Positions 1 to 23,991 of a stretch of 64,000 bases of DNA are shown one piece after another. The position numbers and the translations under genes are program-made. The stretch is from Acidobacteriota bacterium. Lineage in GTDB: Bacteria; Acidobacteriota; Blastocatellia; UBA7656. The notes beneath the pieces are model-generated. The model was not told the DNA's origin and made no database searches. It saw only the letters and a list, made by a program, of their open reading frames with translations. The number at the start of each line of letters is the position of its first letter. Position 1 is the first letter of the stretch. The DNA is taken from NCBI GenBank assembly GCA_038040445.1, contig JBBPIG010000006.1, positions 155,812 to 219,811 of the forward strand, in the 5' to 3' direction.

Positions 1-3000
1 TGCTGCTGGCGGCCAAGTTTCAATCCGCTAAAGCGCGTCTTCTTCTCTGCGACACGCGTTTTCGCTACCACAAGTTTCGGGTGATCTGGTTTCAATCCGC
101 TAAAGCGCGTCTTCTTCTCTGCGACTGGCTCGACATCCTCGACAAGAACGAGAGCAGCGTCGTTTCAATCCGCTAAAGCGCGTCTTCTTCTCTGCGACGT
201 GCGAAGTAGAGAGACAATCAATACACAACAAAGGGTTTCAATCCGCTAAAGCGCGTCTTCTTCTCTGCGACCTGCCCAAAGAAAGCTCGGCTGAAATAGT
301 AGTGGAACAGTTTCAATCCGCTAAAGCGCGTCTTCTTCTCTGCGACGTCAGGCTAAATGATTTGCTCGATATTTAACGAGTTTCAATCCGCTAAAGCGCG
401 TCTTCTTCTCTGCGACCGAGACCATTGGCCAGCACGAGAAAAATGTCACAGCGTTTCAATCCGCTAAAGCGCGTCTTCTTCTCTGCGACTTATATTGGGG
501 TACATAATCATCAACGACAAGTGGGGTTTCAATCCGCTAAAGCGCGTCTTCTTCTCTGCGACTGAAACTGTATTGTTTTCCTCATCACGCCGGAGGAAGT
601 TTCAATCCGCTAAAGCGCGTCTTCTTCTCTGCGACCCGCCCAACGCGATGTCCCTGCTCGATGTTCGTGAAGTTTCAATCCGCTAAAGCGCGTCTTCTTC
701 TCTGCGACAAAATGAGAACCGATCGGCTCTCACAATGGGCAACAGTTTCAATCCGCTAAAGCGCGTCTTCTTCTCTGCGACTTGTGTTTCATGGCCGAGG
801 TGGGGATTTTCGTGCAGTTTCAATCCGCTAAAGCGCGTCTTCTTCTCTGCGACGTCCCAAGGGTCTGAGCTGTGCTGACGGAACAGCAGTTTCAATCCGC
901 TAAAGCGCGTCTTCTTCTCTGCGACGACCTTTTGTGAAAGCGTTTTAAAGTGTGCTCGCAAGTTTCAATCCGCTAAAGCGCGTCTTCTTCTCTGCGACAC
1001 GGCGAATCAAGACCAGATCAAGCAGATATAGTGGTTTCAATCCGCTAAAGCGCGTCTTCTTCTCTGCGACGTTAAAATCTTTATGAGTACACCAATCAAT
1101 CAACAAGTTTCAATCCGCTAAAGCGCGTCTTCTTCTCTGCGACAGTACGATCGGACTGGGAGGCAGCGTTGAAGCGAGCGTTTCAATCCGCTAAAGCGCG
1201 TCTTCTTCTCTGCGACACCAAATATTCAACCCGCCGACGACGACTACTAGTAGTTTCAATCCGCTAAAGCGCGTCTTCTTCTCTGCGACTTGCAAATCAG
1301 TCGCGAGACAGTTAACAAGCATCTCGTTTCAATCCGCTAAAGCGCGTCTTCTTCTCTGCGACGCGAGCTTCAGCGACTATCTTACTGGTAAACGTTCGGT
1401 TTCAATCCGCTAAAGCGCGTCTTCTTCTCTGCGACCGACGCAGTGGCAAAGGCATGGGTTCAACTCGAGAAGTTTCAATCCGCTAAAGCGCGTCTTCTTC
1501 TCTGCGACATCCCAATCTGCGCGTCGGCTTTCTTTGTTGTGGTGTTTCAATCCGCTAAAGCGCGTCTTCTTCTCTGCGACTTGCGGACCGCTTGAGACAT
1601 GTGCGGCGTTGGGGAGGTTTCAATCCGCTAAAGCGCGTCTTCTTCTCTGCGACTCCGCAATCCAGCGTAGCACGGTGGCGATGCAGCGGTTTCAATCCGC
1701 TAAAGCGCGTCTTCTTCTCTGCGACGTAGTGCTACTTGTATCTGCCGTAGTGTTTTTTTTGAGTTTCAATCCGCTAAAGCGCGTCTTCTTCTCTGCGACA
1801 TCCCAAATCGAGACCGAGAACAGGACCTCGCGTTGGTTTCAATCCGCTAAAGCGCGTCTTCTTCTCTGCGACTTAACTTTGGAAAGCGGTGAAGTTGTGG
1901 TTTTTTTGGTTTCAATCCGCTAAAGCGCGTCTTCTTCTCTGCGACACATCCATGCCCAGGTCTTAAAACAGATCTTCGATCGTTTCAATCCGCTAAAGCG
2001 CGTCTTCTTCTCTGCGACGGCTTGGACTTCGACGGAGATCGGCAGCAACTCGAGGTTTCAATCCGCTAAAGCGCGTCTTCTTCTCTGCGACTGAACAATT
2101 CAGTAGAGAACAGCGTCATCACCACGTTTCAATCCGCTAAAGCGCGTCTTCTTCTCTGCGACGACAACGGCACCCCTCTAAATGTAAATGGCGACATCGT
2201 TTCAATCCGCTAAAGCGCGTCTTCTTCTCTGCGACACGACAGCCGCTACGCGCAACTCGATCACATCCACGTTTCAATCCGCTAAAGCGCGTCTTCTTCT
2301 CTGCGACAGCAACATCGCGTCGGACTTAAAGATCCGGGGGATGTTTCAATCCGCTAAAGCGCGTCTTCTTCTCTGCGACTAAGGAGCGAATGATGAACAT
2401 TCAAGATAACACTAGTTTCAATCCGCTAAAGCGCGTCTTCTTCTCTGCGACCTGCCCAACTATTAGGACCACCCCAGAAGGCTAAGTTTCAATCCGCTAA
2501 AGCGCGTCTTCTTCTCTGCGACGACACTCTATGGCCGTAGAGTGTCGGCCACCTTCTCGTTTCAATCCGCTAAAGCGCGTCTTCTTCTCTGCGACGCAAC
2601 CAGCCACTCGCCCGCTCGCCCGTGTCCCCATGTTTCAATCCGCTAAAGCGCGTCTTCTTCTCTGCGACACATACACCCTCCTCCCATCCTCTCGCGCCGT
2701 AGCGTTTCAATCCGCTAAAGCGCGTCTTCTTCTCTGCGACTTGACGTGGCGAGCGACCTCGCGGCTGCGCACAAAGTTTCAATCCGCTAAAGCGCGTCTT
2801 CTTCTCTGCGACACAAATGCACTAACTGTGGCAGCGCCAGGCCTGATGGTTTCAATCCGCTAAAGCGCGTCTTCTTCTCTGCGACTGCAAAATCTAGTTG
2901 GTCCGGCCCTAATCTTAAGGTTTCAATCCGCTAAAGCGCGTCTTCTTCTCTGCGACCAAACATTTCCTCGGCATTGCCGTTAAACTCAATTCGTTTCAAT

Positions 3001-6000
3001 CCGCTAAAGCGCGTCTTCTTCTCTGCGACCGCCCCAAAGCCAGCGGTGGTCCATCGCTTTCGTGTTTCAATCCGCTAAAGCGCGTCTTCTTCTCTGCGAC
3101 GTTGTCACGAAAGACGACAAGCCGGTCGAAGCCGACGTTTCAATCCGCTAAAGCGCGTCTTCTTCTCTGCGACGCTCTATAACAGTAAAGCCTGTGAATC
3201 GAGAGCCGAAGTTTCAATCCGCTAAAGCGCGTCTTCTTCTCTGCGACCCATGCGAGCTAAGAACAACAACTCGAAGCAGGATCGTTTCAATCCGCTAAAG
3301 CGCGTCTTCTTCTCTGCGACTGGGAGGGTGGCGTTAGCGCGCAACCAGTCTGCTCGTTTCAATCCGCTAAAGCGCGTCTTCTTCTCTGCGACCAGTCCAC
3401 GTACCTCTGGAAGGCAACGAGGGTCTTGTTTCAATCCGCTAAAGCCCGTCTTCTTCTCTGCGACAGGTCATTCTTTCCCTTAAGAAGCTTGCTAGTATAG
3501 TTTCAATCCGCTAAAGCGCGTCTTCTTCTCTGCGACAGGTGAATATGGCTTGCAACGGATTCAGTTGCATGTGTTTCAATCCGCTAAAGCGCGTCTTCTT
3601 CTCTGCGACTGAGAAAACGAAACACGTGTGAAGCAGAAGAGACAGTTTCAATCCGCTAAAGCGCGTCTTCTTCTCTGCGACATGGTTGTTCTGCCATTTA
3701 AAATAAAAGAACTTGCTGTTTCAATCCGCTAAAGCGCGTCTTCTTCTCTGCGACCGCCGGGTCGTGGGAGGAGTGGGTGCAAGAACCCAGTTTCAATCCG
3801 CTAAAGCGCGTCTTCTTCTCTGCGACATATGCCATGAGTCGGGTTTAGTGTTGCTGGTAAGTTTCAATCCGCTAAAGCGCGTCTTCTTCTCTGCGACGAA
3901 GGAGAGTCTTCGCACTGGCAACCCGGTCGATCTGTTTCAATCCGCTAAAGCGCGTCTTCTTCTCTGCGACAAAGGACTGTATCAGGATGCTTGTTGTGGG
4001 CTATCGTTTCAATCCGCTAAAGCGCGTCTTCTTCTCTGCGACAGCAAGAAACTGAAAGAGCACGGTGAAACACTCGAGTTTCAATCCGCTAAAGCGCGTC
4101 TTCTTCTCTGCGACAGCTCCGATCGATACGTAGTAACGGGGAAACCAGGGTTTCAATCCGCTAAAGCGCGTCTTCTTCTCTGCGACAGGAGCTTGCACTT
4201 CTCAACTACCCGAACGGTGGTGTTTCAATCCGCTAAAGCGCGTCTTCTTCTCTGCGACATGGCGAGTAGTCAACAATCAACCAGGAGGGAAAAGTTTCAA
4301 TCCGCTAAAGCGCGTCTTCTTCTCTGCGACGACCGTGCCACTGCTCGAACGATGAGTAGCTACCAGTTTCAATCCGCTAAAGCGCGTCTTCTTCTCTGCG
4401 ACATAATCCCTAGTTCGTATGAGCTAGGTCCGGCGAAAGTTTCAATCCGCTAAAGCGCGTCTTCTTCTCTGCGACCCGCCCGTGACTTTACGGATCAATC
4501 ACAATTGGCCGGTTTCAATCCGCTAAAGCGCGTCTTCTTCTCTGCGACGTAAGCAGCTTAACAACTTAGTTTGAAACGAGGTGGTTTCAATCCGCTAAAG
4601 CGCGTCTTCTTCTCTGCGACGGACAGGACCTCGCCAGCGCAGCGATCATCCCCCTCGTTTCAATCCGCTAAAGCGCGTCTTCTTCTCTGCGACCTGACCC
4701 GAGCAAAGGAGATTCTCGATGAAACGAGTTTCAATCCGCTAAAGCGCGTCTTCTTCTCTGCGACACGATCAGAAGCTGGAGCTGGGTCAAGCCAACTGGG
4801 TTTCAATCCGCTAAAGCGCGTCTTCTTCTCTGCGACGGAGACGAAAATTATTATGAATACAGATGACGAAGACGTTTCAATCCGCTAAAGCGCGTCTTCT
4901 TCTCTGCGACACCACGAGCGTCAGTCCCTTGACCCCACTGGAGTCGTTTCAATCCGCTAAAGCGCGTCTTCTTCTCTGCGACGCCGCAAACGACACAACA
5001 ATGGATTAAGGATAATCCGTTTCAATCCGCTAAAGCGCGTCTTCTTCTCTGCGACATGATTGGAATTCCGCCTACTATTCCCGCAAGATTGGTTTCAATC
5101 CGCTAAAGCGCGTCTTCTTCTCTGCGACAGGGTAGAATTATAGGAGACACCTATGATGGCTACGTTTCAATCCGCTAAAGCGCGTCTTCTTCTCTGCGAC
5201 AAGCCTAGCGTGACGCGGCCGTCTCAGCCGAACTGTTTCAATCCGCTAAAGCGCGTCTTCTTCTCTGCGACGCGAGGTACGGATGGCTTGTGGCGTCCAA
5301 AGTAAGGTTTCAATCCGCTAAAGCGCGTCTTCTTCTCTGCGACCAGATCAACAAGATTGGACTCAACCGCGGCGGATACGTTTCAATCCGCTAAAGCGCG
5401 TCTTCTTCTCTGCGACTACTTTAAAACATAGCGCCCTGATAGACGGCGCGAGTTTCAATCCGCTAAAGCGCGTCTTCTTCTCTGCGACGTCCACATGTTT
5501 TGGTGAACGGAGGTAAGGATGTCGTTTCAATCCGCTAAAGCGCGTCTTCTTCTCTGCGACAAGACGAGGGGTGGATATTAGTCAAAGGTGATAAGGTTTC
5601 AATCCGCTAAAGCGCGTCTTCTTCTCTGCGACTGGAAAAGCCAGGAGGGCGTTGACTACATTAAGAAGTTTCAATCCGCTAAAGCGCGTCTTCTTCTCTG
5701 CGACTGGCCAAGGTCCCACCGGACTGGCCGGGCGAGCTGCGTTTCAATCCGCTAAAGCGCGTCTTCTTCTCTGCGACATGACTGGACATCTGTTCAATAC
5801 AGCCTCCCGTATTGTTTCAATCCGCTAAAGCGCGTCTTCTTCTCTGCGACAAACTAAGGGGCTTTATGCCTTATTGGGTAGGAGGTTTCAATCCGCTAAA
5901 GCGCGTCTTCTTCTCTGCGACAAAGTGAGGTTTGCAACATCATGAGGATACTCACTGTTTCAATCCGCTAAAGCGCGTCTTCTTCTCTGCGACATATCTG

Positions 6001-8024
6001 GGAGGTTTTGAGAGCAAAAGGGATCTAGAGTTTCAATCCGCTAAAGCGCGTCTTCTTCTCTGCGACACCAAGGAGCTCGATCGGCCTTAACTTCTGGGAA
6101 CGGTTTCAATCCGCTAAAGCGCGTCTTCTTCTCTGCGACGAAGCCTTTATCAGAGGGATGCCTGACTACAAAAGCGTTTCAATCCGCTAAAGCGCGTCTT
6201 CTTCTCTGCGACGAACTTGGCCCGGAAGACAGAGAAGGGGAATCTGAAGTTTCAATCCGCTAAAGCGCGTCTTCTTCTCTGCGACAGCAGATCAAACAGA
6301 CGGTGGGGTCGCCCCTTGTCGTTTCAATCCGCTAAAGCGCGTCTTCTTCTCTGCGACTAGAACAGCATTACGGCAAAGGCTACGAGTTCGGCGTTTCAAT
6401 CCGCTAAAGCGCGTCTTCTTCTCTGCGACGCGAGAAGCCTGACCAGATGGAGCGGATACGTCCGTTGTTTCAATCCGCTAAAGCGCGTCTTCTTCTCTGC
6501 GACGGCATCATCACTTGTGTGTGGATGGTGCAGAACAGTTTCAATCCGCTAAAGCGCGTCTTCTTCTCTGCGACATGGTGACAGCTCTTGCCTCGGCCAG
6601 TTGGTTTCTTGTTTCAATCCGCTAAAGCGCGTCTTCTTCTCTGCGACGACGTTAAATGGACCCAATGTTGGTCTTGCTGGTGTTTCAATCCGCTAAAGCG
6701 CGTCTTCTTCTCTGCGACCGACCCAAGCTTTGTCAAAATAGCACGAACGATGGGTTTCAATCCGCTAAAGCGCGTCTTCTTCTCTGCGACGTCAATCCGT
6801 CAAAGTTGGCCCTCACACCATTTACGTTTCAATCCGCTAAAGCGCGTCTTCTTCTCTGCGACTTCATGGTCAACGATAGGTTGGCCTGGTTGTGGGATGT
6901 TTCAATCCGCTAAAGCGCGTCTTCTTCTCTGCGACGAGATCGAAACCGGGGACTCAGTCCAGCTTACTCTGTTTCAATCCGCTAAAGCGCGTCTTCTTCT
7001 CTGCGACGTTGTGGAATAGCGTCCTGGCGGCTGGTGAATGATGTGTTTCAATCCGCTAAAGCGCGTCTTCTTCTCTGCGACTCAACTGAAACTACCTGTC
7101 TGTGATAGATGGCGAAGTTTCAATCCGCTAAAGCGCGTCTTCTTCTCTGCGACTGAGGGGAGTGGAGATTTACTTTATCACCGCCGATGTTTCAATCCGC
7201 TAAAGCGCGTCTTCTTCTCTGCGACAAAATCTTCATGGTGCGAATGGTCGGACTGCTCTGGTTTCAATCCGCTAAAGCGCGTCTTCTTCTCTGCGACAAG
7301 CAGATCTGTCCAGAGGTTTGCGGTTCAGAAAGGTTTCAATCCGCTAAAGCGCGTCTTCTTCTCTGCGACTAGTATTACTGGTTTTGGTGAGTGGCGTCGT
7401 GTTAGTTTCAATCCGCTAAAGCGCGTCTTCTTCTCTGCGACTTCCTAGCACACACGGAGGTAAGCAAATAATGTCGAGTTTCAATCCGCTAAAGCGCGTC
7501 TTCTTCTCTGCGACTTCCTAGCACACACGGAGGTAAGCAAATAATGTCGAGTTTCAATCCGCTAAAGCGCGTCTTCTTCTCTGCGACATGACTACCCAAT
7601 TACTGTTTGATGCTCGTGGTCGGTTTCAATCCGCTAAAGCGCGTCTTCTTCTCTGCGACATTCATAAACGACGATTTACCCAGCTTGGTTGAGAGTTTCA
7701 ATCCGCTAAAGCGCGTCTTCTTCTCTGCGACAAGCGCGACAGCGTCTTACATGCAATGCCATCGCCTCGTTTCAATCCGCTAAAGCGCGTCTTCTTCTCT
7801 GCGACCCGATGACGGGTTGCGTATTGTCTCTGGTGGGACGGGTTTCAATCCGCTAAAGCGCGTCTTCTTCTCTGCGACATCAAACAGTCACTCGTGGGCG
7901 GTGTTGTTGTTTTGAGTTTCAATCCGCTAAAGCGCGTCTTCTTCTCTGCGACTCGGAGAGATCCAGCGCAAATGTCGCGCTGGAAAGGTTTCAATCCGCT
8001 AAAGCGCGTCTTCTTCTCTGCGAC
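1..8024 (-). CRISPR. Very large type III CRISPR array, 111 repeats, left end outside the window
   Basis: Counted by eye there are 111 copies of a 37-nt repeat that begins GTTTCAATCC and ends CTGCGAC on the plus strand (first 17-53, last 7988-8024), enclosing 110 full spacers of about 33-38 nt. Bases 1-16 are the end of another spacer, so the array continues to the left. Read on the minus strand the repeat ends GGATTGAAAC. This is the classic form whose last 8 nt become the crRNA 5' tag, so transcription runs leftwards from the leader at 8025-8306. All repeats look identical except the one at 3428-3464, which has one G-to-C change. Spacers 7442-7477 and 7515-7550 are identical. The repeat holds a weak CGC/GCG stem around TTTA, so processing by Cas6 (26743-28065) is expected. 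Confidence 0.99.
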
Positions 8025-8306
8025 TGTCGGCTCTCTAAACCTAGCGATACCAACTGTAAGCCCCCGCATTGGGCTAACCCGTCTTTTTTGGTCTCGCAGT
8101 GGCCGAAGCATACAACCAATTCGTCCCTCCGTGCAAAGGCAAAATGAACGCAGGCCGCGTATAGCGGGTCTGGGCTAAACCCCCGGCATTTTCGGGTTTC
8201 ATGTGGTTAGCCCAACACGCGCCACGACCCTCCAAGAGAGCAATGAAGCCGCCAAGAAATCCCAGTAAGAATATGTGCTGCTGAAGGCGGCGCGGCACAA
8301 CCGGGA
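8025..8306 (-). promoter_or_regulatory. CRISPR leader region
   Basis: This is the non-coding stretch between the leader-proximal repeat (ends 8024) and cas2 (8307). Repeat polarity puts the leader here and the array promoter on the minus strand. It contains a nested hairpin at about 8172-8214: an outer pair TGGGCTAA/TTAGCCCA and an inner pair AAACCC/GGGTTT. A related GGGCTAACCC motif recurs near 8073-8084, close to the array. I could not define -10/-35 boxes with confidence. New spacers should enter next to position 8024. The first 30-40 nt beside the repeat look like neither repeat nor any spacer. Confidence 0.7.
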
Positions 8307-8579
8307 TCAGAGAATATACACCATTTTGTCCGTAGTTGTAACGGCTCGCCCGAGAGCGACGGTCTCTTTTCGACAGGCGGCACAGATGTCGTAATAGCGC
8401 ACATTGTCTTCGGGCAAGACGACCAGGGCGACCGCGCGCCGCATCTCGTCGAAGAGTTGCTCGGTGATGACGCACTCGAAGACGCTGAACTGAACGCGAT
8501 CGCCAAAGCGCCTCAACGTCTTGTGGAGTTGAGTGCGCCGCTTATCATCGGAGACGTCATATGCAACTACAATGAACAT
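8307..8579 (-). CDS. cas2: Cas2 (copy next to the leader)
   Basis: A 90-residue protein of typical Cas2 length. It opens MFIVVAYDVSDDKRR, the Cas2 ferredoxin-fold first strand with the conserved Asp (D8), followed by the usual VQFSVFEC strand. Cas2 is the non-catalytic bridge of the Cas1-Cas2 integrase that inserts new spacers at the leader end. It is the last gene before the leader and lies downstream of the reverse transcriptase on the same strand. It differs clearly from the second cas2 at 10074-10349, so the two are not a recent duplication. The C-terminal part, with a CAACRK motif and the end DKMVYIL, is normal for the family. Confidence 0.96.
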   Translation of the reverse strand: MFIVVAYDVSDDKRRTQLHKTLRRFGDRVQFSVFECVITEQLFDEMRRAVALVVLPEDNVRYYDICAACRKETVALGRAVTTTDKMVYIL

Positions 8580-8662
8580 GGCTATAGTAGTCCGTAGTCA
8601 GTAGTCCGTAGTCCGTAGCGGGTAGTTCGCGTTCACTCATACACGAGAGGCCAGATCAGGAA
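8580..8662. repeat. TAGTCCGTAG-type short-repeat cluster
   Basis: The gap between cas2 and the reverse transcriptase carries overlapping copies of TAGTCCGTAG/TAGTCAGTAG (about 8586-8620). It is the same family as the perfect 28-bp inverted repeat at 10351-10458 beside the other cas2, but only one arm is present here. No gene is visible in the gap. The shared element on both sides of the RT-cas2 block could serve as a recombination site; this is inferred from position only. Confidence 0.75.
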
Positions 8663-10042
8663 TCACCGGTCGCGCACCGCGTCTCTTAGTCGAGTGAGAA
8701 GGCCTCTTGCTTCGGTGCTTGCTGCTTTTATTCGACTAGTGGTCTGGCGGCGATGCCGGCCGGCGAACTCGATTATTCGCTGGGTAACGACCTCCGGCAA
8801 TGACGGTGGCGGAACGACACGACCATCCGGGCTGAACGTGTGACCCAGGAACTTGAACGACTCGAGCGGCGAAACGACTCGGCTCTTCTCAGGATGGAGG
8901 CGAAGGCGGCGCTCGCGAAGGGTGGCTTGAGATTCGCGCATCACCGCGCGCGCGTCGGCTTCGGTCCGGCAAAGGATGACGAAATCGTCGCAGTAGCGGA
9001 CGAGCCTGTGAGAGGGTTTCGTCATCGCCAGGTCGAACGGATGCAGGTAGACATTGGACAGCAGCGGCGAAAGCGGCGCCCCCTGGAGGGTACCTCGTGG
9101 AGACTTGAGCTTTTCGAGTCCCTTTAGCGCGAATGGCGCAGCGGCAACTAACCCAATAGCGGCGCCGCCTATGCCGAGGGCTTTGAGGGAGAACAACCCC
9201 CGAAGCGCCGCGCGTTGGGCTACGACGAGCAACAATCCGTCTTGAAGCAAGCGCCCCATGGCGGCGCGGCGGAGTTCCGAGCCCGGCGAGCTGTTTTGCG
9301 GCGATTCAGCTTCCGATTGCGCAGGCCAATCCGTTTCGGCTTGCTCGGGGCTATCAACACCAAGGCGCTCGCAGGCGAATTGATCGAGGCGGCTGTCGAT
9401 GGCGTCGCGAACCGCCAGGTTCATTCCGGCTACTGAAGATCGCCAGCGCCGTATCCAGTCCAGGGTCGGGCGACCTCCGTCCAGCGCTCCGGCGTCGAGC
9501 CACTGCTTGATCAACTGCAATACATCCGGGTCGGGCAGTGTGCGAGCGAGGTCATCGAGGAGAAGCTGATGATCGAGCGCGCCGAAGAAGTTTTCGACGT
9601 CGGCGTCGACGGTCCACAGGAAGCCCTGGGCGCGAGCTACGACGAGGCGCTGGATGGCCATCTCGACAGAACGTTCGGGGCGAAAGGCAAAGCTACAATC
9701 GAGGAACTGCCTTTCGAACATGGGCTCGACGGCATCGAGCACGGCGCGCTGCGCGATGCGGTCGCGAACGGTGAGGATAGCGATCTCGCGCTGGCGGCCA
9801 TCGGGCTTCAAGACGCAGACGTGGCGTGCAGGGAGCGGTTCGTAGGTCTTATCGAGCAGGTTGCGGCCGAGCTCTTTAAGGTTCGGCGCGAGATTGCGCT
9901 CGAAGGCGCGGATGCTGACGGCATCGGCGCCGGCTGAGCCGCGATTCGCGCGTACCTTGCGCCAGGCGACCTGGAGCGAGGGGATGGAAGAGATCTGGAG
10001 TAACAGGCCGTGTGACTGAGTTTGTTTGGTTCGTGGTTGCAT
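8663..10042 (-). CDS. CRISPR-associated reverse transcriptase with a large internal insertion
   Basis: A 459-residue group II intron-like RT. Motifs in order: PDGRQREIAILTVRDR (about 80-95), CSFAFRPERSV (116-125), catalytic motif A VDADVENFFGALDH (145-158), GTLQGAPLSPLLSNVYLH (317-334), YCDD active site (350-353) and FKFLGHTFSPDG. RTs in CRISPR adaptation modules can copy RNA for spacer acquisition; here the RT sits between two cas2 genes and close to cas1 but is fused to neither. Start ATG at 10042 is backed by GGAGG five bases upstream. Odd feature: about 125 residues lie between the helix ending WLDAGALDGG (190) and GTLQGAP, where most relatives have a short linker. The insert includes a hydrophobic stretch at about 282-306. 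All catalytic residues are intact, so activity is plausible. Confidence 0.93.
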   Translation of the reverse strand: MQPRTKQTQSHGLLLQISSIPSLQVAWRKVRANRGSAGADAVSIRAFERNLAPNLKELGRNLLDKTYEPLPARHVCVLKPDGRQREIAILTVRDRIAQRAVLDAVEPMFERQFLDCSFAFRPERSVEMAIQRLVVARAQGFLWTVDADVENFFGALDHQLLLDDLARTLPDPDVLQLIKQWLDAGALDGGRPTLDWIRRWRSSVAGMNLAVRDAIDSRLDQFACERLGVDSPEQAETDWPAQSEAESPQNSSPGSELRRAAMGRLLQDGLLLVVAQRAALRGLFSLKALGIGGAAIGLVAAAPFALKGLEKLKSPRGTLQGAPLSPLLSNVYLHPFDLAMTKPSHRLVRYCDDFVILCRTEADARAVMRESQATLRERRLRLHPEKSRVVSPLESFKFLGHTFSPDGRVVPPPSLPEVVTQRIIEFAGRHRRQTTSRIKAASTEARGLLTRLRDAVRDR

Positions 10043-10073
10043 AGGTCCTCCGATTACGGGTTGTTATTGATTG

Positions 10074-10349
10074 TCAGCATATCCAGACGTCAGGGTCGCG
10101 GCTGAGCTCGGCATCACTGTGCAGGCTGAACCGATCCCGGCAGTCCTGGCATAGCTTGTAGATCTGGACCTTGTCCTCGAGTCTATTCATGCGCATCTTC
10201 GATTCGTGGACGAGGGCGGCCATCCGCTGTTTTGAGAGCGAGCATTCAAAGACGCTGCGCTGGACTCGCTTCCCATACGCCTCCATCAACTTCGCGACTT
10301 CGCGGAGCCGCTTGTCGTCGCAAATGTCATAAGCCACTAGAAAAAACAT
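10074..10349 (-). CDS. cas2: Cas2 (second, divergent copy)
   Basis: A 91-residue Cas2 beginning MFFLVAYDICDDKRLR with the conserved early Asp (D8) and the VQRSVFEC strand. It lies between cas1 (upstream) and the RT (downstream) on the same strand. Only scattered residues match the other Cas2 at 8307, so these are two old lineages kept in one module. They could pair with Cas1 separately, form a heterodimer, or one could be a relic; the sequence alone does not tell. The start ATG at 10349 is the natural family start. Confidence 0.96.
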   Translation of the reverse strand: MFFLVAYDICDDKRLREVAKLMEAYGKRVQRSVFECSLSKQRMAALVHESKMRMNRLEDKVQIYKLCQDCRDRFSLHSDAELSRDPDVWIC

Positions 10350-10350
10350 G

Positions 10351-10458
10351 GTCCGTAGTCCGTAGTCAGTAGTCCGTATGTTCGGGGTTCGGAGTTCGAC
10401 GTTCCGACTCCGGGACCCCGGAGTACGGACTACGGACTACTGACTACGGACTACGGAC
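10351..10458. repeat. Perfect 28-bp inverted repeat between cas1 and cas2
   Basis: The arms 10351-10378 and 10431-10458 are exact reverse complements built from GTCCGTAGTC/CAGTAGTCCGTA units, and the spacer between them holds a further imperfect palindrome (GTTCGGAG region). Transcribed leftwards it would form a very stable hairpin between cas1 and cas2. It has no T-run of a normal terminator. The same unit occurs at 8586-8620. It resembles intergenic palindromic repeats scattered through many genomes and may attenuate or protect the mRNA. Confidence 0.85.
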
Positions 10459-10468
10459 TAACCCCATC

Positions 10469-11467
10469 CTAGTGCCAGCCCCGGAAGGGCTGATATGGCG
10501 CGCCCTGTGATACGGTCCTTTGCATTGCGAGCGCTTGATCGTGAAGGACACGCCTGAAGTTCATTCGTTCGCCGGTGCGCCGGTGCGGGAACTCGGCGGT
10601 CATCAAGCGCTCATACTCGTTGAGAAATCGTTTACGTGCGGCGTCCTTGATCTGAATGCCCTGGAGGGCGTCGCCAGTGAAATCGTTCGCCTTTACCACT
10701 TCCAGATTTGTTACATTCAGCACGAGCCGGTCGGCAATCAGCGCGCGCAGCTCCTCGATTAGATCGAGCGCGAGCGAACAGCGGCCATAGTCAAGGCTGT
10801 GCAGGAAGCCTAAGTAAGGATCGAAGCCCACCGATACCAGTGCCCCGATTGCTTCGTTGTACAGCAGCGTGTAGGCGAAGCTGAGCAGGGCGTTTATCGG
10901 GTCAGTCGGCGGGCGGCGCGTTCGCTTTTTGAAATCCATCGAGCGGCGTAGCATCCGAGGAAAGCCTTTGAAATAGATCGCGGCCGCCTGGCCTTCTATT
11001 CCTCGAAGCACGTCGATGGTGGGTTTCTCGGTGGCCTTCACTGAAAGCCTTGCGAGTAGAGAGATCTCGAGCTGGAGCTTGCATTCGGGATGATTGCGCT
11101 GATGACGGGCGAGCACTTCTGAAGAGTTGTCGATCTTGCCGGATACGATGGCGCTAGCGACCTCGGCGGCGAAGCGGACATCGCGGACTCGCTCATACTG
11201 GCGCACGCGCAAAAAGGCGTTCTTGGATTCGAGCGGCGCGAGGCGGCCCTTGAGCTTGCCGTGTGAGCTGAGAAAGGTGGTGTCAATGCCGCGGTCGAGC
11301 AGGAAAGCCATGGCCTGGGTTGAGACTTGAACGTTGCCGAAGATTACGACTCGGTCAACTTTGAAGTCGTGAATCTCGGCGAGCTTGACGTTGTCGCGCT
11401 CGACGACGAGGCGGTTGTGAGTCTTGCGGAGAGTGGCTTGTTGGTCGGTGATGTAGAGAGTTGGCAT
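10469..11467 (-). CDS. cas1: Cas1 integrase
   Basis: A 332-residue Cas1, the metal-dependent integrase that inserts spacers at the array leader together with Cas2. The expected active-site residues are visible: Glu in GIEGQAAAIYF, His in GFLHSLDYGRCSLALDL, and Glu in LIEELR. The N-terminal beta domain starts MPTLYITDQQATLRK; an upstream in-frame start would add 19 unrelated residues, so I place the start at ATG 11467. It begins just downstream of the RDD gene stop (11469), which suggests one transcript. It is a free-standing Cas1 with no RT or Cas6 fusion, unlike many RT-associated type III systems. Confidence 0.97.
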   Translation of the reverse strand: MPTLYITDQQATLRKTHNRLVVERDNVKLAEIHDFKVDRVVIFGNVQVSTQAMAFLLDRGIDTTFLSSHGKLKGRLAPLESKNAFLRVRQYERVRDVRFAAEVASAIVSGKIDNSSEVLARHQRNHPECKLQLEISLLARLSVKATEKPTIDVLRGIEGQAAAIYFKGFPRMLRRSMDFKKRTRRPPTDPINALLSFAYTLLYNEAIGALVSVGFDPYLGFLHSLDYGRCSLALDLIEELRALIADRLVLNVTNLEVVKANDFTGDALQGIQIKDAARKRFLNEYERLMTAEFPHRRTGERMNFRRVLHDQALAMQRTVSQGAPYQPFRGWH

Positions 11468-11468
11468 T

Positions 11469-12119
11469 CTACGAGCACCCCCGCGTCCCGCAATGAGGAC
11501 AGTACTTGGTTGATACCGGGACACGCTCGCCGCACCCCGCGCAGACAGGCCGGAGTTTCTGATACTGACCCTCGCTGATGACTTGCGTACCGGCTAGATA
11601 GTCCTCGATCCGCCGGCCAGTCGGGTTGAGCCACACGAACGCGAGCGAGACAAGCTCATACGCTATTGCGAATGGCACAAGCGCCCACGTGCAATAGGCA
11701 GCCTGGCCGAGAGCAATTGACAAACGTCGTAGCGCGGCTCGGCAAATCCCACAAGGCTGCTTTGATGACACGGACACAACTCGAAGGCGGAAGATCCACT
11801 TGCCTGGGCCGCGGCCCGAAGGCGCGCCGTCACATATCAAGTGATAAGCAATGACTACGAACACCCACGGAGGGAACACGTAAGCGATGAATGGCAGCGG
11901 CGCCAAGCGATCGATCACTTCCGCCAGGAGACGGCGCGCCACGGTCGATTGCCGGCTTGTGACTGCCGAGGACTGAATGGTGTGCGCAGCCGCGCCGCAA
12001 GCCGGGCAGAAGCTCGCAGCGTTCGGTAGCCGGGCGCCACATTCGCAGCCTGCGGATTCGCGCATTCTCGCGAGCCGAGCAGCGGTGGTATTCATTAGCG
12101 CGCTTCTGATCATTCCCAT
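11469..12119 (-). CDS. RDD-family membrane protein with two zinc ribbons
   Basis: A 216-residue protein with an N-terminal zinc ribbon (CECGARL...FCPACG, about 24-42), an RDD-type membrane core of hydrophobic helices (FPPWVFVVIAYHLICD, then WALVPFAIAYELVSLAFVW, with GKWIFRLRVV between) and a C-terminal zinc ribbon (CAGCGERVP...YCPHCG). Start ATG 12119 is chosen because GAGGTG sits seven bases upstream; a longer reading would overlap the previous gene. RDD proteins are poorly characterised membrane proteins, some linked to ion transport. Its position between a penicillin-binding protein and cas1, one base from cas1, suggests co-transcription, but it is not a known Cas protein. It may be a passenger or an unrecognised ancillary component. 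Confidence 0.82.
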   Translation of the reverse strand: MGMIRSALMNTTAARLARMRESAGCECGARLPNAASFCPACGAAAHTIQSSAVTSRQSTVARRLLAEVIDRLAPLPFIAYVFPPWVFVVIAYHLICDGAPSGRGPGKWIFRLRVVSVSSKQPCGICRAALRRLSIALGQAAYCTWALVPFAIAYELVSLAFVWLNPTGRRIEDYLAGTQVISEGQYQKLRPVCAGCGERVPVSTKYCPHCGTRGCS

Positions 12120-14518: not shown

Positions 14519-15025
14519 CTACAATAGTGGCATCCAGTATTTGTAGACGTGCAGCTGCTGCGGAGTCGGCCTGTGGTAGAGCTTCACGGGAATCCAATTC
14601 CGATAGAGGCACCCAATGATAGTCCCCGCTTGCACCGGTCCTTGGATGAACAAGTGAAGCTCCGTACAGCCGATTGATTCGAAGTATCGCCGTTTATCTC
14701 GAAGAGAATTGACGAGTTGCTCCAGGTCCGCTGTGCATTTGATGCCGTCCATGGTCAGCTCTTCGATGGGCATCGGCCAGCCTTTGGATCGAAGGAGCTG
14801 GTCAACTTGCGGCTTCATCGAGTTAGTAGTATCAACGAGCGACACTGCCAGAGCGGCAGGCCCGGAGGTCTTTACACCTTCATGAAGTGAGATAAGCTGC
14901 TGGAAGTTTTCAAACGGCGGAGTCTTTCGGGCGAGGTCGCGCAGTTGCGTGTTTTGCTTCCAGAGGCGAAACGCGGCATAGGCTGCGAACACGACGTAGC
15001 GACCTGAAGAATGTTTGCGAGCCAA
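14519..15025 (-). CDS. Membrane CARF (Cam1-like) protein, N-terminus apparently frameshifted
   Basis: The readable frame (TTG 15025) gives 168 residues: a hydrophobic YVVFAAYAAFRLW, then a Rossmann/CARF-like domain (ALAVSLVDTTNSM; helix MKPQVDQLLRS; LHLFIQGPVQAGTIIGCL; WIPVKLYHRP; ending YKYWMPLL). A single membrane helix plus a CARF domain of this size resembles Cam1, the cyclic-tetra-adenylate-gated membrane effector of type III CRISPR; the final strands also recall SAVED domains. A better start exists at ATG 15063 with GAAAGG upstream, giving MFTWLNSLGSSIGWLANILQ in another frame. Restoring one lost base near 14995-15010 would join both into one full transmembrane helix. So the gene is either frameshifted or misread by one base. 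Assignment is by pattern, not alignment. Confidence 0.6.
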   Translation of the reverse strand: MARKHSSGRYVVFAAYAAFRLWKQNTQLRDLARKTPPFENFQQLISLHEGVKTSGPAALAVSLVDTTNSMKPQVDQLLRSKGWPMPIEELTMDGIKCTADLEQLVNSLRDKRRYFESIGCTELHLFIQGPVQAGTIIGCLYRNWIPVKLYHRPTPQQLHVYKYWMPLL

Positions 15026-15539: not shown

Positions 15540-17705
15540 TCAACTGTCCGAATATTCGTTGCCATTCTTTTCCAGCAGCGGCAGACCTATTTCCTCCTTG
15601 CTAGCCAATGGCAGGGGTATTGGTTCAGGGCGTCGTTTATTACCGACGAACCATTCAAACTGCATCCCTTCAGGATTGGGTTTAGCGAAGTCCCCGTGAG
15701 GTTCAACATAGTAAGGCGGACGGGGATAGTGGATAGGCAAACCTATGGAGGGTTCAGTGAGCAGTGCTTGCAAGTCTTTGACATTTTCCAGTTCGAGAAA
15801 ATCCTTGCCGTAAAGCTCTTTCATCTTCGTCTTGAATGAAATGACACAACGCTCACGCCAGACGCTCTCCGTGATGGTTCGCCAGCCACTTGTGTCCAAC
15901 ATGGCATAACGTTCGCCCGGATCGCAGATTTCCACCTTCTCTACTTTGACCAAGACACTGCCGAACCCAAGCGGCTTGGCGAAACCGAGGCGATGATGCC
16001 AGCCCTCGAGTTCCAGAGCCCAAAGCAGCGCGCCCACCTCTTCTTTTGCCAGATTCTCGAATTCCACCGTGAAAGTGAACGCCCCAGATTTCAACACGCC
16101 GCTGGCAGTGCGATTTTGATCGTCTTCTCTCCAGCCCGAGCGTACATACTCTTGCTCGCTAAGCATTTGCCCGTGATGCCGATACACCTTGCGCCCTCGC
16201 AACCGCGCTTGGTTGTCATCGTAGTTGAGTTTGCCTGTTCGATCAGGCTGCCCGTCCCCCCTTACCAGATAGAAGTTGGTGGTAGTTGGTTTGGGACTTG
16301 AAAGAATGGCAAGAGGGATTGGTGTCTCGAACGCCTCAATTGTGCCTGCGACCGGCTTGCCGTGCGAGAAGCGGACACGGCCAGCGTAGGCGGTTTGTTT
16401 ACCTTGTGCTTGCTTCTCCTCTCCGGAGACCCAGCCAAAGATACGGCACGCCGGGCACAGCGTTTGTGCGTCATTGCAGCGATGAAGGCGCGGAGGCAAC
16501 AGATCACCTATGGAGCGCTTGTATCCCACTCGTGGAACGGAAACGGGAACAATGAACTCGACTTGGGGGTTATTCGATGTTCCGTTCAAGAATGCGTATA
16601 CAAGCTCGCCGCCTTTCAATTGTCGCTCCTCATCTCTGTACACGAAGCGACTGAGAGCGGGTTCGTCACCAACACGCTTATCGATTGGTTGGCCTTGCCG
16701 AGAGCGGTTCTGCACTTTATCGCGGTGGCGTTCTTGATAGTCTGAGATCAACCCTTCGTAGGCTCTACGGACAGGCTCATCCAGACTGATTGTCTCAGGG
16801 CAAGAATCGTCTTCCTGATCTCGGAAGAAAAACCGCTCGCTGTGTTTCGGCTCAATGTTTTGATTTGTCAGGCAAAGCCATCCCGGTTTCACAACCTGAC
16901 CGTCGCGTAAATTACTTTCTAGTTCATCTCTGCTGTTGCCAAGCGCAACAACATCCCAGAACTTTATTCGAGGGTGAGGGTGCTCAGTCAGTTGCATTAT
17001 GGCGAAACACTCTTTGCCATGAGTCAAATCGCGCAGCTTTACTTCCATGCCAGCTTTTGTACGAACTTTGAAGAGGCGCGTTCTGCGATTTTGCGGCTCT
17101 TTCACCAAAGTCCCGCTTGGCTTGATTGGCCAATAGCGAAAGAGCCATGCCGCATATTGTTCGTCTCTCGGCCCGGTACCGATTCGCAAATCTGCCGTGC
17201 CCGTTAGCAAACGCAAGAGCCAGCCCGACGCGCTTTTTTCCACTCGCGCTGGAACCAACCAAGGAGCCTGCCTTGAGTCAAAGTGATAGCTCAACCTCTT
17301 GTTGGTGAAAACCGCAAAACAGGAATTCGTCGCGGTCTCGAATATTGCACGAATCATTCCGCGCAAGCTGCTAGCAGGCAAAGCTGGTTGTCCTTCGTAC
17401 TCGAAAAATCGGTAAATCTTGTGCCCTTCCTTCTCCTTATCTTTCAACTCTCGTACCGCATGCGAGTCGGAGATGAACAGCGGTGTCTTTGCGTCAACGC
17501 GACAAGTGATGCGCCCGGTTAACCCGATATAGCGGTCGTGCGGCGGCGGCGGACAATTGCCCAAGTTGTGATCGGTTGGGCGTTCACGCTCCAGGTAGCG
17601 CACGAAGTTGTAGGGATTGAGAAAGCGATACGGGCCTTTGCGCTCTTTGGTCTTCGGTTCTTCGCTGGTTGAGACTTGATTTTGCGTGTTCTGCTCGACA
17701 GCCAT
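15540..17705 (-). CDS. cas7: Type III-D Cas7 with insertion (TIGR03986-like RAMP)
   Basis: 721 residues. The N-terminus carries the family hallmarks FLNPYNFVRYL and HDRYIGLTGRITC, then a RAMP fold with SSLRGMIRAIFETATNSC. A Cys pair motif CPACRIFGWVSGEE lies near the middle, and the C-terminal glycine-rich loop is LGFAKPLGFGSV. This matches the TIGR03986 RAMP of III-D loci, the counterpart of the Cas7-insertion subunit in the III-Dv complex, which caps the backbone near the 3' end of the crRNA. It is the last effector gene of the overlapping operon, 14 bp after csx19. The size is normal for the family. Whether its own loop aspartate is cleavage-competent cannot be judged by eye. Confidence 0.88.
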   Translation of the reverse strand: MAVEQNTQNQVSTSEEPKTKERKGPYRFLNPYNFVRYLERERPTDHNLGNCPPPPHDRYIGLTGRITCRVDAKTPLFISDSHAVRELKDKEKEGHKIYRFFEYEGQPALPASSLRGMIRAIFETATNSCFAVFTNKRLSYHFDSRQAPWLVPARVEKSASGWLLRLLTGTADLRIGTGPRDEQYAAWLFRYWPIKPSGTLVKEPQNRRTRLFKVRTKAGMEVKLRDLTHGKECFAIMQLTEHPHPRIKFWDVVALGNSRDELESNLRDGQVVKPGWLCLTNQNIEPKHSERFFFRDQEDDSCPETISLDEPVRRAYEGLISDYQERHRDKVQNRSRQGQPIDKRVGDEPALSRFVYRDEERQLKGGELVYAFLNGTSNNPQVEFIVPVSVPRVGYKRSIGDLLPPRLHRCNDAQTLCPACRIFGWVSGEEKQAQGKQTAYAGRVRFSHGKPVAGTIEAFETPIPLAILSSPKPTTTNFYLVRGDGQPDRTGKLNYDDNQARLRGRKVYRHHGQMLSEQEYVRSGWREDDQNRTASGVLKSGAFTFTVEFENLAKEEVGALLWALELEGWHHRLGFAKPLGFGSVLVKVEKVEICDPGERYAMLDTSGWRTITESVWRERCVISFKTKMKELYGKDFLELENVKDLQALLTEPSIGLPIHYPRPPYYVEPHGDFAKPNPEGMQFEWFVGNKRRPEPIPLPLASKEEIGLPLLEKNGNEYSDS

Positions 17706-17719
17706 GCCTGCTCCTCCTT

Positions 17720-18313
17720 CTACTCTGCCAACTCACGCAACCAGACGAACTCTACGCGTCCGGCGCGGCTGAACGTCCAATAACAAATGCGCACTCGTTG
17801 CCAAGCTGCCGTCGCGGCTGGCTCAGGGTAGTCGAGTGACGCGCGGCCTACCCGGTCGTCAAACCAGCGGGTTTGCCCGTCTTTGCGCTCGCCCCAGAGC
17901 AAGGCGCTTTCATCGCAACGGTGAAAAGTGACAACCTTGGTTTTCGTCCAGAACTTATCTGGCGCCGATTGATTGCTAGATGGCGGTTGCGCAGTGGGTT
18001 TGCCGATAAAGCGCCAGCGAAAGTTTGCGCCATCACGTCGCAACTCCAAATCGCCTCCATCGCCGAACAATCGGCCACGCTCCAACAGGTTGATCTCGTC
18101 CGGCAGCGCGTCTCGCTCGAAATCTATCCGGCTGGCATATTCCCAGATGCGGAACGGCATTTCGTTCAGGCTGTACTTTGATAGCAACTCAGCCAATTCG
18201 GTTTCCGCGCACAGACCCCCCCAGATTGCCAGATCAGCTTCGCCATATTGCTTCCCTGTTGTTACTTCGGTGACAAGTTGATTGAAGTCCACTGCTTTCT
18301 GCTTTGCGCTCAT
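17720..18313 (-). CDS. csx19: Csx19, type III-D subunit
   Basis: 197 residues. No enzyme motif is visible. The central LLERGRLFGDGGDLELRR...FRWRFIG and the C-terminal strand VRICYWTFSRAGRVEFVWLREL resemble Csx19, a small subunit unique to III-D complexes, described in III-Dv structures as part of the effector. Context supports this strongly: the gene overlaps the double-Cas7 gene by 4 bp (ATGA) and precedes the TIGR03986-like RAMP by 14 bp, the expected III-D order. The name is assigned on motif memory plus position, so it carries some uncertainty. Confidence 0.78.
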   Translation of the reverse strand: MSAKQKAVDFNQLVTEVTTGKQYGEADLAIWGGLCAETELAELLSKYSLNEMPFRIWEYASRIDFERDALPDEINLLERGRLFGDGGDLELRRDGANFRWRFIGKPTAQPPSSNQSAPDKFWTKTKVVTFHRCDESALLWGERKDGQTRWFDDRVGRASLDYPEPAATAAWQRVRICYWTFSRAGRVEFVWLRELAE

Positions 18314-20010
18314 AGCGTCTCCTTCCTGGGATAAAGGTGATCGACCTTCCCGAAGTAGGTGTCATCGCATCGCTCAATACCCCAATCACATTTCTTGATT
18401 TCTTTCTTGAATGCTTCTACCCAGTGTTCGACTTGAGTCAGCCATTGTAGCTGGGTGTCGTTGTTCAAAGCGGCCACGCGATATACACCGCTGCTCGTTG
18501 TTACTGGCAGCCCAAAGCCATCATCACCCAGAAACCCGAGTTGCGCTTCCCAGTCGCCTGTTGGAATGTGAACTCGCCCGAAGCCTTTGGCTGCGCCGAA
18601 CCCAACACTGAGCCAACCGTCGCGCAGGTCTCGTAACACCAGCACCAACCAGCCCAATTCCCACGGCTCCGGGTTCTCCAGATGCATGCGCACGCGGAAA
18701 GCCGGACGCCACAGCGCGAGGGCGTCAAACTTGAATTGGTCCGCACCGCCGCCGGTGAAGCGGTCAATCGCCAGGAAATCCTGCATCTTGTATTCCGGTT
18801 TTTCTCCGGAGAACGGCGCGTCTTCGACGATCAAGCGACTGCCGCGTTGCGTGCTGCCGAACAAACGGCAGGCCAAGCAAAGTTGAGGTTGATTGTCTTT
18901 CTCTTTCTCAGTGGCTGCCTTGTTATTGTGCTTGGGACGGTTTTTGAACAAACTGTCGCAGCTTTCGAGAGATGGGATGATTCCTCCCAAGCGACTTGCC
19001 AGAGGATGACAGGCCGGACAATGACGCAGGAACTCTTGGGTATTATTCGCCGCCGACGTGGCTAGCGTGCGCGCGATGCGCTCAGCGTGCGAGCGCAGCA
19101 CGCCGCGCAACCCTGCGCCAGGCAAAACCGGCTTGGCCCAATCTGCAACAGCACTGGTCAATGGCGCGTGATCGAAGCCGCTGATGCAGCCGGAGGTGGC
19201 GTCATTTGTTAGCAATGGTCCATCAGCTTGCAACGCGAAGGTGAGGTTGAGCCAGCATCTTGCGACCGTTTGCGCATCTGTTGACTGAATTTCGATCTGT
19301 CCCACTTGCTGTGACAGCCACCCGGAGACTTCCTGAGCGCCTTTTTTCCAAGGGTAATCCTCGCGTAGGAAGTTCATCAGTTGGGCTTGCTGATTCAAAT
19401 CAAGTCCGACACAACGCACGTCCTGTAGCGTAAATGCGCCAAGCCCACGCGCTACACGTCCGCCCAGCCAAGCTCGCCCGGCTTGCCACTCGGCCAATCC
19501 GGCAGCCAGCAATTGTTCGCCCCGTTCATCGGTTCCGCGCAACTCCAACCGCAACTCGAAAGCGCATCCCTGCGGGATTGCTTCGAGATCGAATTTGACT
19601 GCGCCCGCTCGCGCCGCTGCGCCGGTAGCCCGATCAATTCCCACACTGTCACGGATAAAACTGGCTGTGCCGTCCTTCAGCTTCGCGTCAAAGACCAACA
19701 ACCGGGATGCAGTGGCAGGGCTATTCTCTTCGTCTGTCGGATTCACATCGCCGAACAGATGGCAGACTTCGCAACCACAAGCCTTGCCGTCATCGGCCCC
19801 CAGCGCTTTACAAGCCCGCACTCCCAGATGCGGAACCAAGCGGGTCAGCAGAGCGCGTAACGCGCCCGCAATCGCAGTGCCTGGGATGAGAGGGTGACCA
19901 GCCCCGTCGCGCCGAATCAAGGCATCGGTCGTCTCGTTGCCTACGCCAGCGCCGAGGTGAACAGCGGTGCGCGCCTGCATCGTTCCAGTAATGACGCAGT
20001 ATTGTGTCAT
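18310..20010 (-). CDS. cas7: Cas7-Cas7 fusion (Cas7-2x) of the type III-D effector
   Basis: 566 residues with two tandem Csm3-like RAMP domains. Domain 1: VHLGAGVGN, then a loop with Asp29 (TTDALIRRD), PLIPGTAIAGALR, Cys cluster CGCEVCHLFGD, ending RVARGLGAF. Domain 2: loop GFDHAPL (Asp280), PVLPGAGLRGVLRS, Cys motifs CPACHPLA and CLACRLFGS, final loop VGFGAAKGFGRV. In type III backbones the Asp in the first loop of each Cas7 cleaves target RNA at 6-nt spacing; both positions are Asp here, so two active sites are plausible. The architecture equals the Cas7-2x subunit of III-Dv. It overlaps both neighbours by 4 bp, so translation is coupled. Confidence 0.9.
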   Translation of the reverse strand: MTQYCVITGTMQARTAVHLGAGVGNETTDALIRRDGAGHPLIPGTAIAGALRALLTRLVPHLGVRACKALGADDGKACGCEVCHLFGDVNPTDEENSPATASRLLVFDAKLKDGTASFIRDSVGIDRATGAAARAGAVKFDLEAIPQGCAFELRLELRGTDERGEQLLAAGLAEWQAGRAWLGGRVARGLGAFTLQDVRCVGLDLNQQAQLMNFLREDYPWKKGAQEVSGWLSQQVGQIEIQSTDAQTVARCWLNLTFALQADGPLLTNDATSGCISGFDHAPLTSAVADWAKPVLPGAGLRGVLRSHAERIARTLATSAANNTQEFLRHCPACHPLASRLGGIIPSLESCDSLFKNRPKHNNKAATEKEKDNQPQLCLACRLFGSTQRGSRLIVEDAPFSGEKPEYKMQDFLAIDRFTGGGADQFKFDALALWRPAFRVRMHLENPEPWELGWLVLVLRDLRDGWLSVGFGAAKGFGRVHIPTGDWEAQLGFLGDDGFGLPVTTSSGVYRVAALNNDTQLQWLTQVEHWVEAFKKEIKKCDWGIERCDDTYFGKVDHLYPRKETL

Positions 20011-22398: not shown

Positions 22399-23991
22399 TC
22401 ATGCCTCCTTGTACACGTCCCGATCTTTGTCCAGATCGAAAGCGAAATCCCAAGCCTCTAGCAGATCCAGCAGCGCATGACCGTGCCATATTGCTTCGTC
22501 TGTCTTGCGATTGATCTTGTAGAGCCAGCCGGAATCGCCGCTGCCCAGTTGGGCTAAAGCCGCGCGGGTGATCTTCTCCGCCTCTTCGTCACGCCCGACC
22601 CGGCCAAGCAATTGCTCAAGATCCATTCGCCACGACTCGAGCTCAGCGGTCGAGTCCGGCAACCGGTCAAAGAGGGAGCGCAATTGCGCCAAGCGTTTGT
22701 TCGGTAGTCCGCTCAACTTTAATCGTTGATTGATCAGGCGATGCAGAGGCAAACCCCACTGCTCAGCGCGCGAGGGCATTGACTGATTGTCTTCCGGCAG
22801 AACCCAAAATGGCCGCAGAGTGGGCCGCCGCGTGCCTTCTCTTGGCGCTTCCACGATCTGACTACCGAGAATGATCTCGAAATCCACCACCGACAAGTGC
22901 TCGCCTGTTTCGTAGGCCAGCGCTTTACTCAGTTGCTTGGCGCGTCCAAGTCGCTCGACGCCGGCACGGTAGGCCAGACGATACGGATAACTCTCCTTGC
23001 AGATCACTACCACTGCGGCGATGGTCGGCCTCTCTACTTGCACCGTCAGTTTGAGGCCATTGATAATTTGAGCCATGCCGGTCTCGAACTCGCGGCAGAA
23101 CTTCAGCGCAAAATCTAAAGCCCACGGCGCCGGTACCAACGCGAACAGATCATCACCGCCCAGGATGAGTGGCAAGACCGGCACTTTGAATGGATCAACC
23201 TCACCACGCGCATCTCGTTGTGTCATCGCCTTGCGCGTCGGCGCTGCCAGAGCCTGACGCAACTTTTGCGTCATCTGCTTTGACAGCTCGCGCATTTGCT
23301 CTTCGTTGCATTGGCCGAACAGTTTGCCCAAATTGTTGCCATCGGCCATCAGATAGGCGACATAACGGCGTGGATCAAAGCGTGCTGTGTCCTTTGCTTC
23401 CATCGGCCAATCAAACGTCCCGGCGCGCCCGCCGGTCACCAGTTGGAGAAAAGGCCGGAGGAAAGTCCCTTCTCCCGGACTGTCACGCTCGCGCCCTTTG
23501 ACCATACAGGCGCGGCACAAATAGTTGGCGCGCTCATCGGCATGGCGATTACCGTATGCGATTGCCAATCCCGCACCGCACGAAGCACACCAGGCTGTAA
23601 ACGGCATCTGGGGCGTAGTCTGTACTGTTTGTTGCCGCCAGCGTTTAGCTACACGCAGTTTTTCTTCGGCGGCTTCGCTGGCTTTGGCAAAATCGCCATT
23701 CTTAATTTCCTCCGGTTCCGCCACAGTGATCGCGCCATCGGCGGCACGGCGATAGATTTCAGCCAGATTTTCGCCGAATGTCCGCGCCTGATTCAGGTCA
23801 TTGAACACTATGCGGAATGCACCGCCATCATTCACTACAATGCGCTCGCCACCGCCGAGCAGTTGCTGCGGCACCTCGTTGCAAAAGCGCGTGAGCAATT
23901 GGCTGCCGCCTACCACTTCGCGCAGATGCGAGGCGCGAAAGATGAAATCCTGAATCTGATCGGCCTCCGCGGCCAACAGGTATTCGGTCAT
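22399..23991 (-). CDS. cas10: Cas10 with GGDD cyclase motif and no HD domain
   Basis: 530 residues. The N-terminus EYLLAAEADQIQDFIFRAS and VVGGSQLLTRFC is typical of Cas10. A treble-clef zinc finger (C135, C138, C159, C162) is followed by the first palm motif YLMADGNNLG (about 213-222) and the catalytic LILGGDDLFALV (GGDD at 278-281), then a helical C-terminal domain. GGDD converts ATP to cyclic oligoadenylates when target RNA binds. No HD nuclease motif precedes the palm, so single-stranded DNA cleavage is not expected. The gene overlaps the CARF-HEPN gene by 4 bp. The family is certain; subtype is judged from the neighbours. Confidence 0.95.
   Translation of the reverse strand: MTEYLLAAEADQIQDFIFRASHLREVVGGSQLLTRFCNEVPQQLLGGGERIVVNDGGAFRIVFNDLNQARTFGENLAEIYRRAADGAITVAEPEEIKNGDFAKASEAAEEKLRVAKRWRQQTVQTTPQMPFTAWCASCGAGLAIAYGNRHADERANYLCRACMVKGRERDSPGEGTFLRPFLQLVTGGRAGTFDWPMEAKDTARFDPRRYVAYLMADGNNLGKLFGQCNEEQMRELSKQMTQKLRQALAAPTRKAMTQRDARGEVDPFKVPVLPLILGGDDLFALVPAPWALDFALKFCREFETGMAQIINGLKLTVQVERPTIAAVVVICKESYPYRLAYRAGVERLGRAKQLSKALAYETGEHLSVVDFEIILGSQIVEAPREGTRRPTLRPFWVLPEDNQSMPSRAEQWGLPLHRLINQRLKLSGLPNKRLAQLRSLFDRLPDSTAELESWRMDLEQLLGRVGRDEEAEKITRAALAQLGSGDSGWLYKINRKTDEAIWHGHALLDLLEAWDFAFDLDKDRDVYKEA

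Follow-up and report, generated by a model that had tools for sequence, protein, structure and literature searches.

Antisense orientation bias among the spacers of a reverse transcriptase-associated type III-D CRISPR array, estimated from codon statistics

Introduction

The literature has not settled whether type III CRISPR systems linked to a reverse transcriptase (RT) fix the orientation of their spacers on acquiring them, or whether a preferred orientation emerges only through subsequent selection. A long array beside an RT gene in an Acidobacteriota genome raises this question directly. An initial reading of the locus, hereafter the original prediction, held that many spacers span junctions between a ribosome-binding site and an ATG start codon, mostly in one orientation, such that the crRNAs would be antisense to mRNA, and it tied this arrangement to the RT. 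Here we examine the orientation of these spacers and the part that an RT might have in establishing it.

Results

An RT-associated type III-D locus

The analyzed window is a stretch of 64,000 nucleotides, of which positions 17 to 8024 (minus strand) are occupied by 111 repeats of 37 bp, GTCGCAGAGAAGAAGACGCGCTTTAGCGGATTGAAAC in the crRNA sense, and 110 spacers of 33 to 38 nt. The whole array comprises 152 repeats, 41 of which lie left of the window and end in a degenerate terminal repeat. An assembly gap, represented by a run of Ns at about −117 to 16 relative to the window, is flanked on both sides by copies of one spacer, which makes the exact spacer count at this point uncertain. When the gap, an aberrant spacer of 53 nt and a duplicate are excluded, the set comes to 148 unique spacers. 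No copy of the repeat is present elsewhere in the genome when as many as three mismatches are allowed.

The direction of transcription proposed originally, leftward through the array, is supported by the degenerate left terminal repeat, by the position of the leader and cas genes to the right of the array, and by the 3′ repeat end ATTGAAAC. On the first two grounds, we assign the crRNAs to the minus strand. The putative leader (8025 to 8306, minus strand) adjoins the perfect-repeat end and separates the array from cas2; no sigma-70 consensus was seen when it was scanned. Two adjacent spacers near the leader (7442 to 7550) are identical, and probably arose by duplication of a repeat-spacer unit.

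The adaptation genes, all on the minus strand, have the order cas2 (8307 to 8579; TIGR01573, PF09827), RT (8663 to 10042), a second cas2 (10074 to 10349) and cas1 (10469 to 11524; TIGR00287, PF01867). This arrangement places the locus among RT-associated adaptation modules, in which the RT is fused or adjacent to cas1. Fusion of RT and Cas1 is the commonest form, but here the two are separate genes, and the unfused RT is flanked by two cas2 genes (8307 to 11524). Three genes outside the cas core, encoding a zinc-ribbon/RDD protein, a PBP1A-like protein and a SAVED-like protein (14519 to 15025), lie between cas1 and the effector genes. The last of these is possibly a second cyclic-oligonucleotide effector.

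The effector genes, also on the minus strand, begin with a cas7-type RAMP gene (15540 to 17705; TIGR03986) and csx19 of type III-D (17720 to 18313; TIGR03984 above the cut-off, Csx19 at 9e-58). These are followed by a type III-D cas7 encoding a tandem RAMP (18310 to 20010), a type III-D cas7-cas5 (Csx10-like) fusion (20007 to 22397; Cas5_IIId at 2e-30) and cas10 (22399 to 23991; PADLOC Cas10 at 8e-59, PF22335). A Csx1/Csm6-like CARF-HEPN effector gene (23988 to 25640) and cas6 (26743 to 28065) complete the set. The presence of Cas10 together with a Csx10-like Cas5 and Csx19 is as expected for type III-D. Taken with the Cas7 proteins, Csx1 and Cas6, these components mark the effector as a transcript-dependent one of type III-D. 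With its cas gene profiles and array, the locus is classified as an RT-associated type III-D CRISPR-Cas system.

The RT is group II intron-like, carries a YCDD motif and matches the group II-like profile at 4.5e-79, a score below the TIGR04416 equivalog cut-off. A search of genome contigs with this protein returned mostly group II intron RTs. An insertion of ∼125 amino acids (residues about 186 to 315), located before the QG...SPLLSN motif, splits the two palm halves and contains a hydrophobic LGIGGAA segment. Solved group II-type RTs have ∼10 residues at this site. The insertion has no Pfam match, and it is shared by three related RTs, such that all four same-clade genes in our alignment carry it.

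Codon periodicity indicates a coding-strand bias

Searches of phages and plasmids with the spacers at E ≤ 1 yielded no protospacer, nor did limited pattern scans of IMG/VR or a search of 98 related genomes. A lone phage match (E = 0.2) was dismissed because it crosses a spacer/repeat junction. Three weak matches at E ≤ 0.01 in the related genomes were likewise set aside, two because they cross artificial spacer joints and one because it is at chance level. When the array was searched with its repeats included, relatives returned chiefly other arrays with similar repeats. The absence of protospacers agrees with the scarcity of matches reported for RT-linked spacers (PMC5513706).

Because no protospacers were found, we used a protospacer-free test in which both strands of each spacer are scored by a codon model. 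Training used four phages and host genes rather than the host's real viruses, and in a calibration with phage genes withheld from training the model assigned 75% of 35-nt fragments correctly. By this measure, the plus strand is the coding strand in an estimated 0.82 [0.67–0.94] of the 148 spacers. A model trained on host genes gives 0.905 [0.75–1.0]. Correction by dinucleotide shuffling of the same spacer gives 0.75 to 0.80, with lower bounds of 0.59 to 0.63 and Wilcoxon p values of 0.001 to 0.007. The estimate is 0.82 when spacers with a ribosome-binding site and ATG are dropped, and 0.76 when the first 5 nt are trimmed. Stop codons do not separate the strands (open frames, 2.01 versus 1.98).

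Since the array is transcribed leftward, a coding plus strand makes the crRNAs antisense. The antisense excess anticipated by the original prediction is thus upheld, with ∼75 to 82% of spacers plus-coding and 50% excluded, as judged purely from codon statistics. These statistics support a real antisense bias of the kind expected for type III systems, and by the same codon-based measure the array has the property of a functional type III spacer set, namely crRNAs antisense to target transcripts. The bias is evident at both ends of the age range, with plus-coding fractions of 0.93 for the newest 40 spacers versus 0.79 for the oldest 40.

Related arrays without an RT are also biased

We applied the codon model to two sets of comparison arrays. 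Each array of the RT-linked set is either linked to one of two same-clade RTs or has repeats of a similar family, and the 49 spacers of this set have a plus-coding fraction of 0.87 [0.66–1.0]. The RT-less set (n = 460) consists of related arrays from genomes that lack a close relative of the RT or have a different repeat family; it is typed in part, and the typed arrays are type III. Its plus-coding fraction is 0.68 [0.60–0.77]. Since the bias is also present, at this lower level (68%), in relatives without an RT, the RT is not required for it, and these data do not bear out the proposed tie between the RT and antisense orientation. Nonetheless, the bias is stronger in arrays linked to an RT than in RT-less ones (0.83 versus 0.68; Mann-Whitney p = 0.018), although the comparison of the present array alone with the RT-less set is not significant (p = 0.11). 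Because few arrays are involved, we treat the difference as a lead and not as a result. A modest contribution of the RT to the antisense bias is plausible.

Spacers resembling gene starts

We scored gene-start-like spacers by two rules. The loose rule calls for GGAG, GAGG, AGGA or AAGG located 4 to 12 nt 5′ of an ATG whose frame is open to the spacer end, and the strict rule for a 5-nt core 3 to 12 nt 5′ of such an ATG. The original prediction named seven plus-strand spacers of this type and only one in the opposite orientation. The coordinates and sequences of all seven are correct, and six of them, representing five distinct sequences, pass. These are the spacers at 2380 to 2414 (TAAGGAG...ATGATG) and 5129 to 5163 (TAGGAGACACCTATGATGGC), which read like gene starts, 5489 to 5523 (TGAACGGAGGTAAGGATGTC), which resembles an intercistronic junction, 5922 to 5956 (TGAGG and ATG 11 nt apart), a weaker candidate, and the identical pair at 7442 to 7477 and 7515 to 7550 (TAG...GGAGGTAAGCAAATAATGTCG), a gene start counted as one sequence. 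The spacer at 3537 to 3572 fails, since it offers only AGGTG at 3 nt from the ATG. Two clear plus-strand gene starts had been overlooked, at 4694 to 4727 (AAAGGAGATTCTCGATGAAACGA) and 4837 to 4873 (GGAGACGAAAATTATTATGAATACAGATGACGAAGAC), along with weaker cases at 3971, 5272 and 5851. In the opposite, crRNA sense, the spacer at 2669 to 2703 (GGAGGAGGGTGTATG) passes as claimed, but it is not the only one, because a second candidate is present at 3465 to 3499 on the minus strand (TTAAGGGAAAGAATGACC).

Among the 148 unique spacers, the loose rule finds 13 plus and 6 minus cases, compared with 6.4 ± 2.5 and 3.3 ± 1.8 under a first-order Markov null. The strict rule finds 11 and 3 (sign test, p = 0.057). 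Strict cases number 9 plus versus 1 minus within 2380 to 7550 and 1 versus 2 among the spacers to the left of 2380, which are older; the newest 40 spacers have 6 versus 0. In the younger half the strand asymmetry is genuine; over the array as a whole it is modest.

Sense phage DNA sampled at 82% sense would be expected to yield 6.4 (T7), 3.7 (Mu), 4.4 (lambda) or 1.9 (Syn5) strict plus cases. The 11 observed exceed three of these four expectations (Poisson p from 6e-6 to 0.06), in keeping with the proposed clustering near gene starts. However, the frequency here (11/148) is not significantly above that in RT-less related arrays (19/460; Fisher p = 0.13). Gene-start clustering is thus suggestive only, and the preference is not specific to having an RT beside the array.

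Base composition and reading frame at the spacer end

The leader-distal spacer end, read as the first seven bases on the plus strand (54 to 7987), is non-random. A occupies position 1 in 37% of spacers, position 4 in 39% and position 7 in 42% (62/148), and T is found at position 3 in only 7% (11/148). This preference is not seen in the pooled related arrays, and the motif is not clearly reproduced in the other RT-linked arrays. End-position base preferences account for the seven spacers that begin with ATG, as they predict 6.6. In-frame acquisition, hinted at by the three-base spacing of A (positions 1, 4 and 7), was ruled out for the plus strand, where the frames are distributed 56/37/55; the minus strand has an excess of frame 0 (67 to 69 of 148 spacers). 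Terminal-transferase A tails added by the RT were also considered as the origin of the motif and rejected. Their order of preference matches position 1 (A>G>T>C), but the end affected misfits 3′ tailing of sense RNA.

Discussion

About four fifths of the spacers in this array are stored in the orientation that makes the leftward crRNA antisense to the source's coding strand, and we consider selection the most likely mechanism (probability roughly 0.6). New spacers would be inserted either way round; their source would be DNA and perhaps, by way of the RT module, RNA. Because type III interference needs pairing between crRNA and transcript, as established type III biology indicates, lineages with useful antisense spacers would be retained. 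The RT may contribute a modest intrinsic antisense skew. Spacers at ribosome-binding-site/ATG junctions would be partly an expected by-product of sampling the sense strands of gene-dense phages, and a further slight enrichment of gene starts among the spacers of the younger half is possible, though unproven. An array-wide value close to 80% is compatible with selection, whether or not the RT adds a little to it. There is precedent in Thermus thermophilus, whose type III spacers are also antisense to phage transcripts, although no RT is present. There, spacers derive from either strand before selection and show a strong strand bias after it, demonstrating that the bias arises by selection during infection (PMC7515739). 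One observation counts against selection alone: bias among the newest 40 spacers is no weaker than among the oldest 40, an outcome that selection would predict only if it acted quickly.

That same observation would be accommodated if the RT-Cas1-Cas2 module captured mRNA or its cDNA and integrated it in a fixed orientation, such that the bias arose at acquisition. The stronger bias of RT-linked over RT-less arrays (p = 0.018) and the non-random leader-distal end in this array point the same way, as does the moderate RT-dependent antisense skew published for the RT-Cas1 of Marinomonas mediterranea, which acquires spacers in either orientation (PMC5576922, PMC11014452). However, that skew is only marginal, RT-less arrays are likewise biased, few arrays underlie the RT comparison (with p = 0.11 for the present array), and the end motif is not clearly repeated in other RT-linked arrays. 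We consider an origin at acquisition unlikely. A preference for translation-initiation regions of mRNA, such as 5′ ends or RNase cuts, would explain why 11 strict plus cases are found where 1.9 to 6.4 are expected from sense phage DNA, with 6 versus 0 among the newest spacers. According to a review, an RT-less type III system favors positions 10 to 50 bp downstream of start codons (PMC9048733). Conversely, this signal is absent from the older half and not significantly above that of RT-less arrays, the phage expectation varies with gene density, and ATG-first spacers follow from base preferences at the spacer end. This preference is distinctly improbable as the explanation. We are somewhat more doubtful still that the separate RT with its lineage-specific insertion, two Cas2 proteins and Cas1 capture phage mRNA directionally and with a preference for translation-initiation regions, making spacers antisense by design and not by selection.

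It could also be supposed that the asymmetry is due to chance or to purine composition, with no coding-strand bias at all. The strict counts of 11 versus 3 reach only p = 0.057, purines make up 54% of the plus strand, and purine content readily affects motif counts. Yet the codon signal outlasts mono- and dinucleotide-preserving shuffles (p = 0.0005 to 0.007), removal of the gene-start-like spacers and end trimming, and independent arrays replicate it. An artifact has only a very slight chance of being the correct explanation, and selection acting on transcript-dependent interference is the reading we prefer.

Among known systems, the RT-Cas1 III-D system of Vibrio vulnificus (Gonzalez-Delgado 2019), as summarized in a review (PMC9048733), resembles this locus in its III-D effector, the RT in its adaptation module and its RNA-targeting logic. 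It differs in that the present locus has a separate RT gene between two cas2 genes and an unfused cas1. The M. mediterranea system likewise joins an RT adaptation module to a type III effector, but it is of type III-B, has an RT-Cas1 fusion, and acquires spacers uniformly along genes, with no RNA region enriched (PMC11014452). Codon periodicity allows spacer orientation to be estimated without protospacers, here for an array of about 150 spacers and its relatives. Together, the array and its relatives suggest that the presence of an RT goes with a moderately stronger antisense bias.
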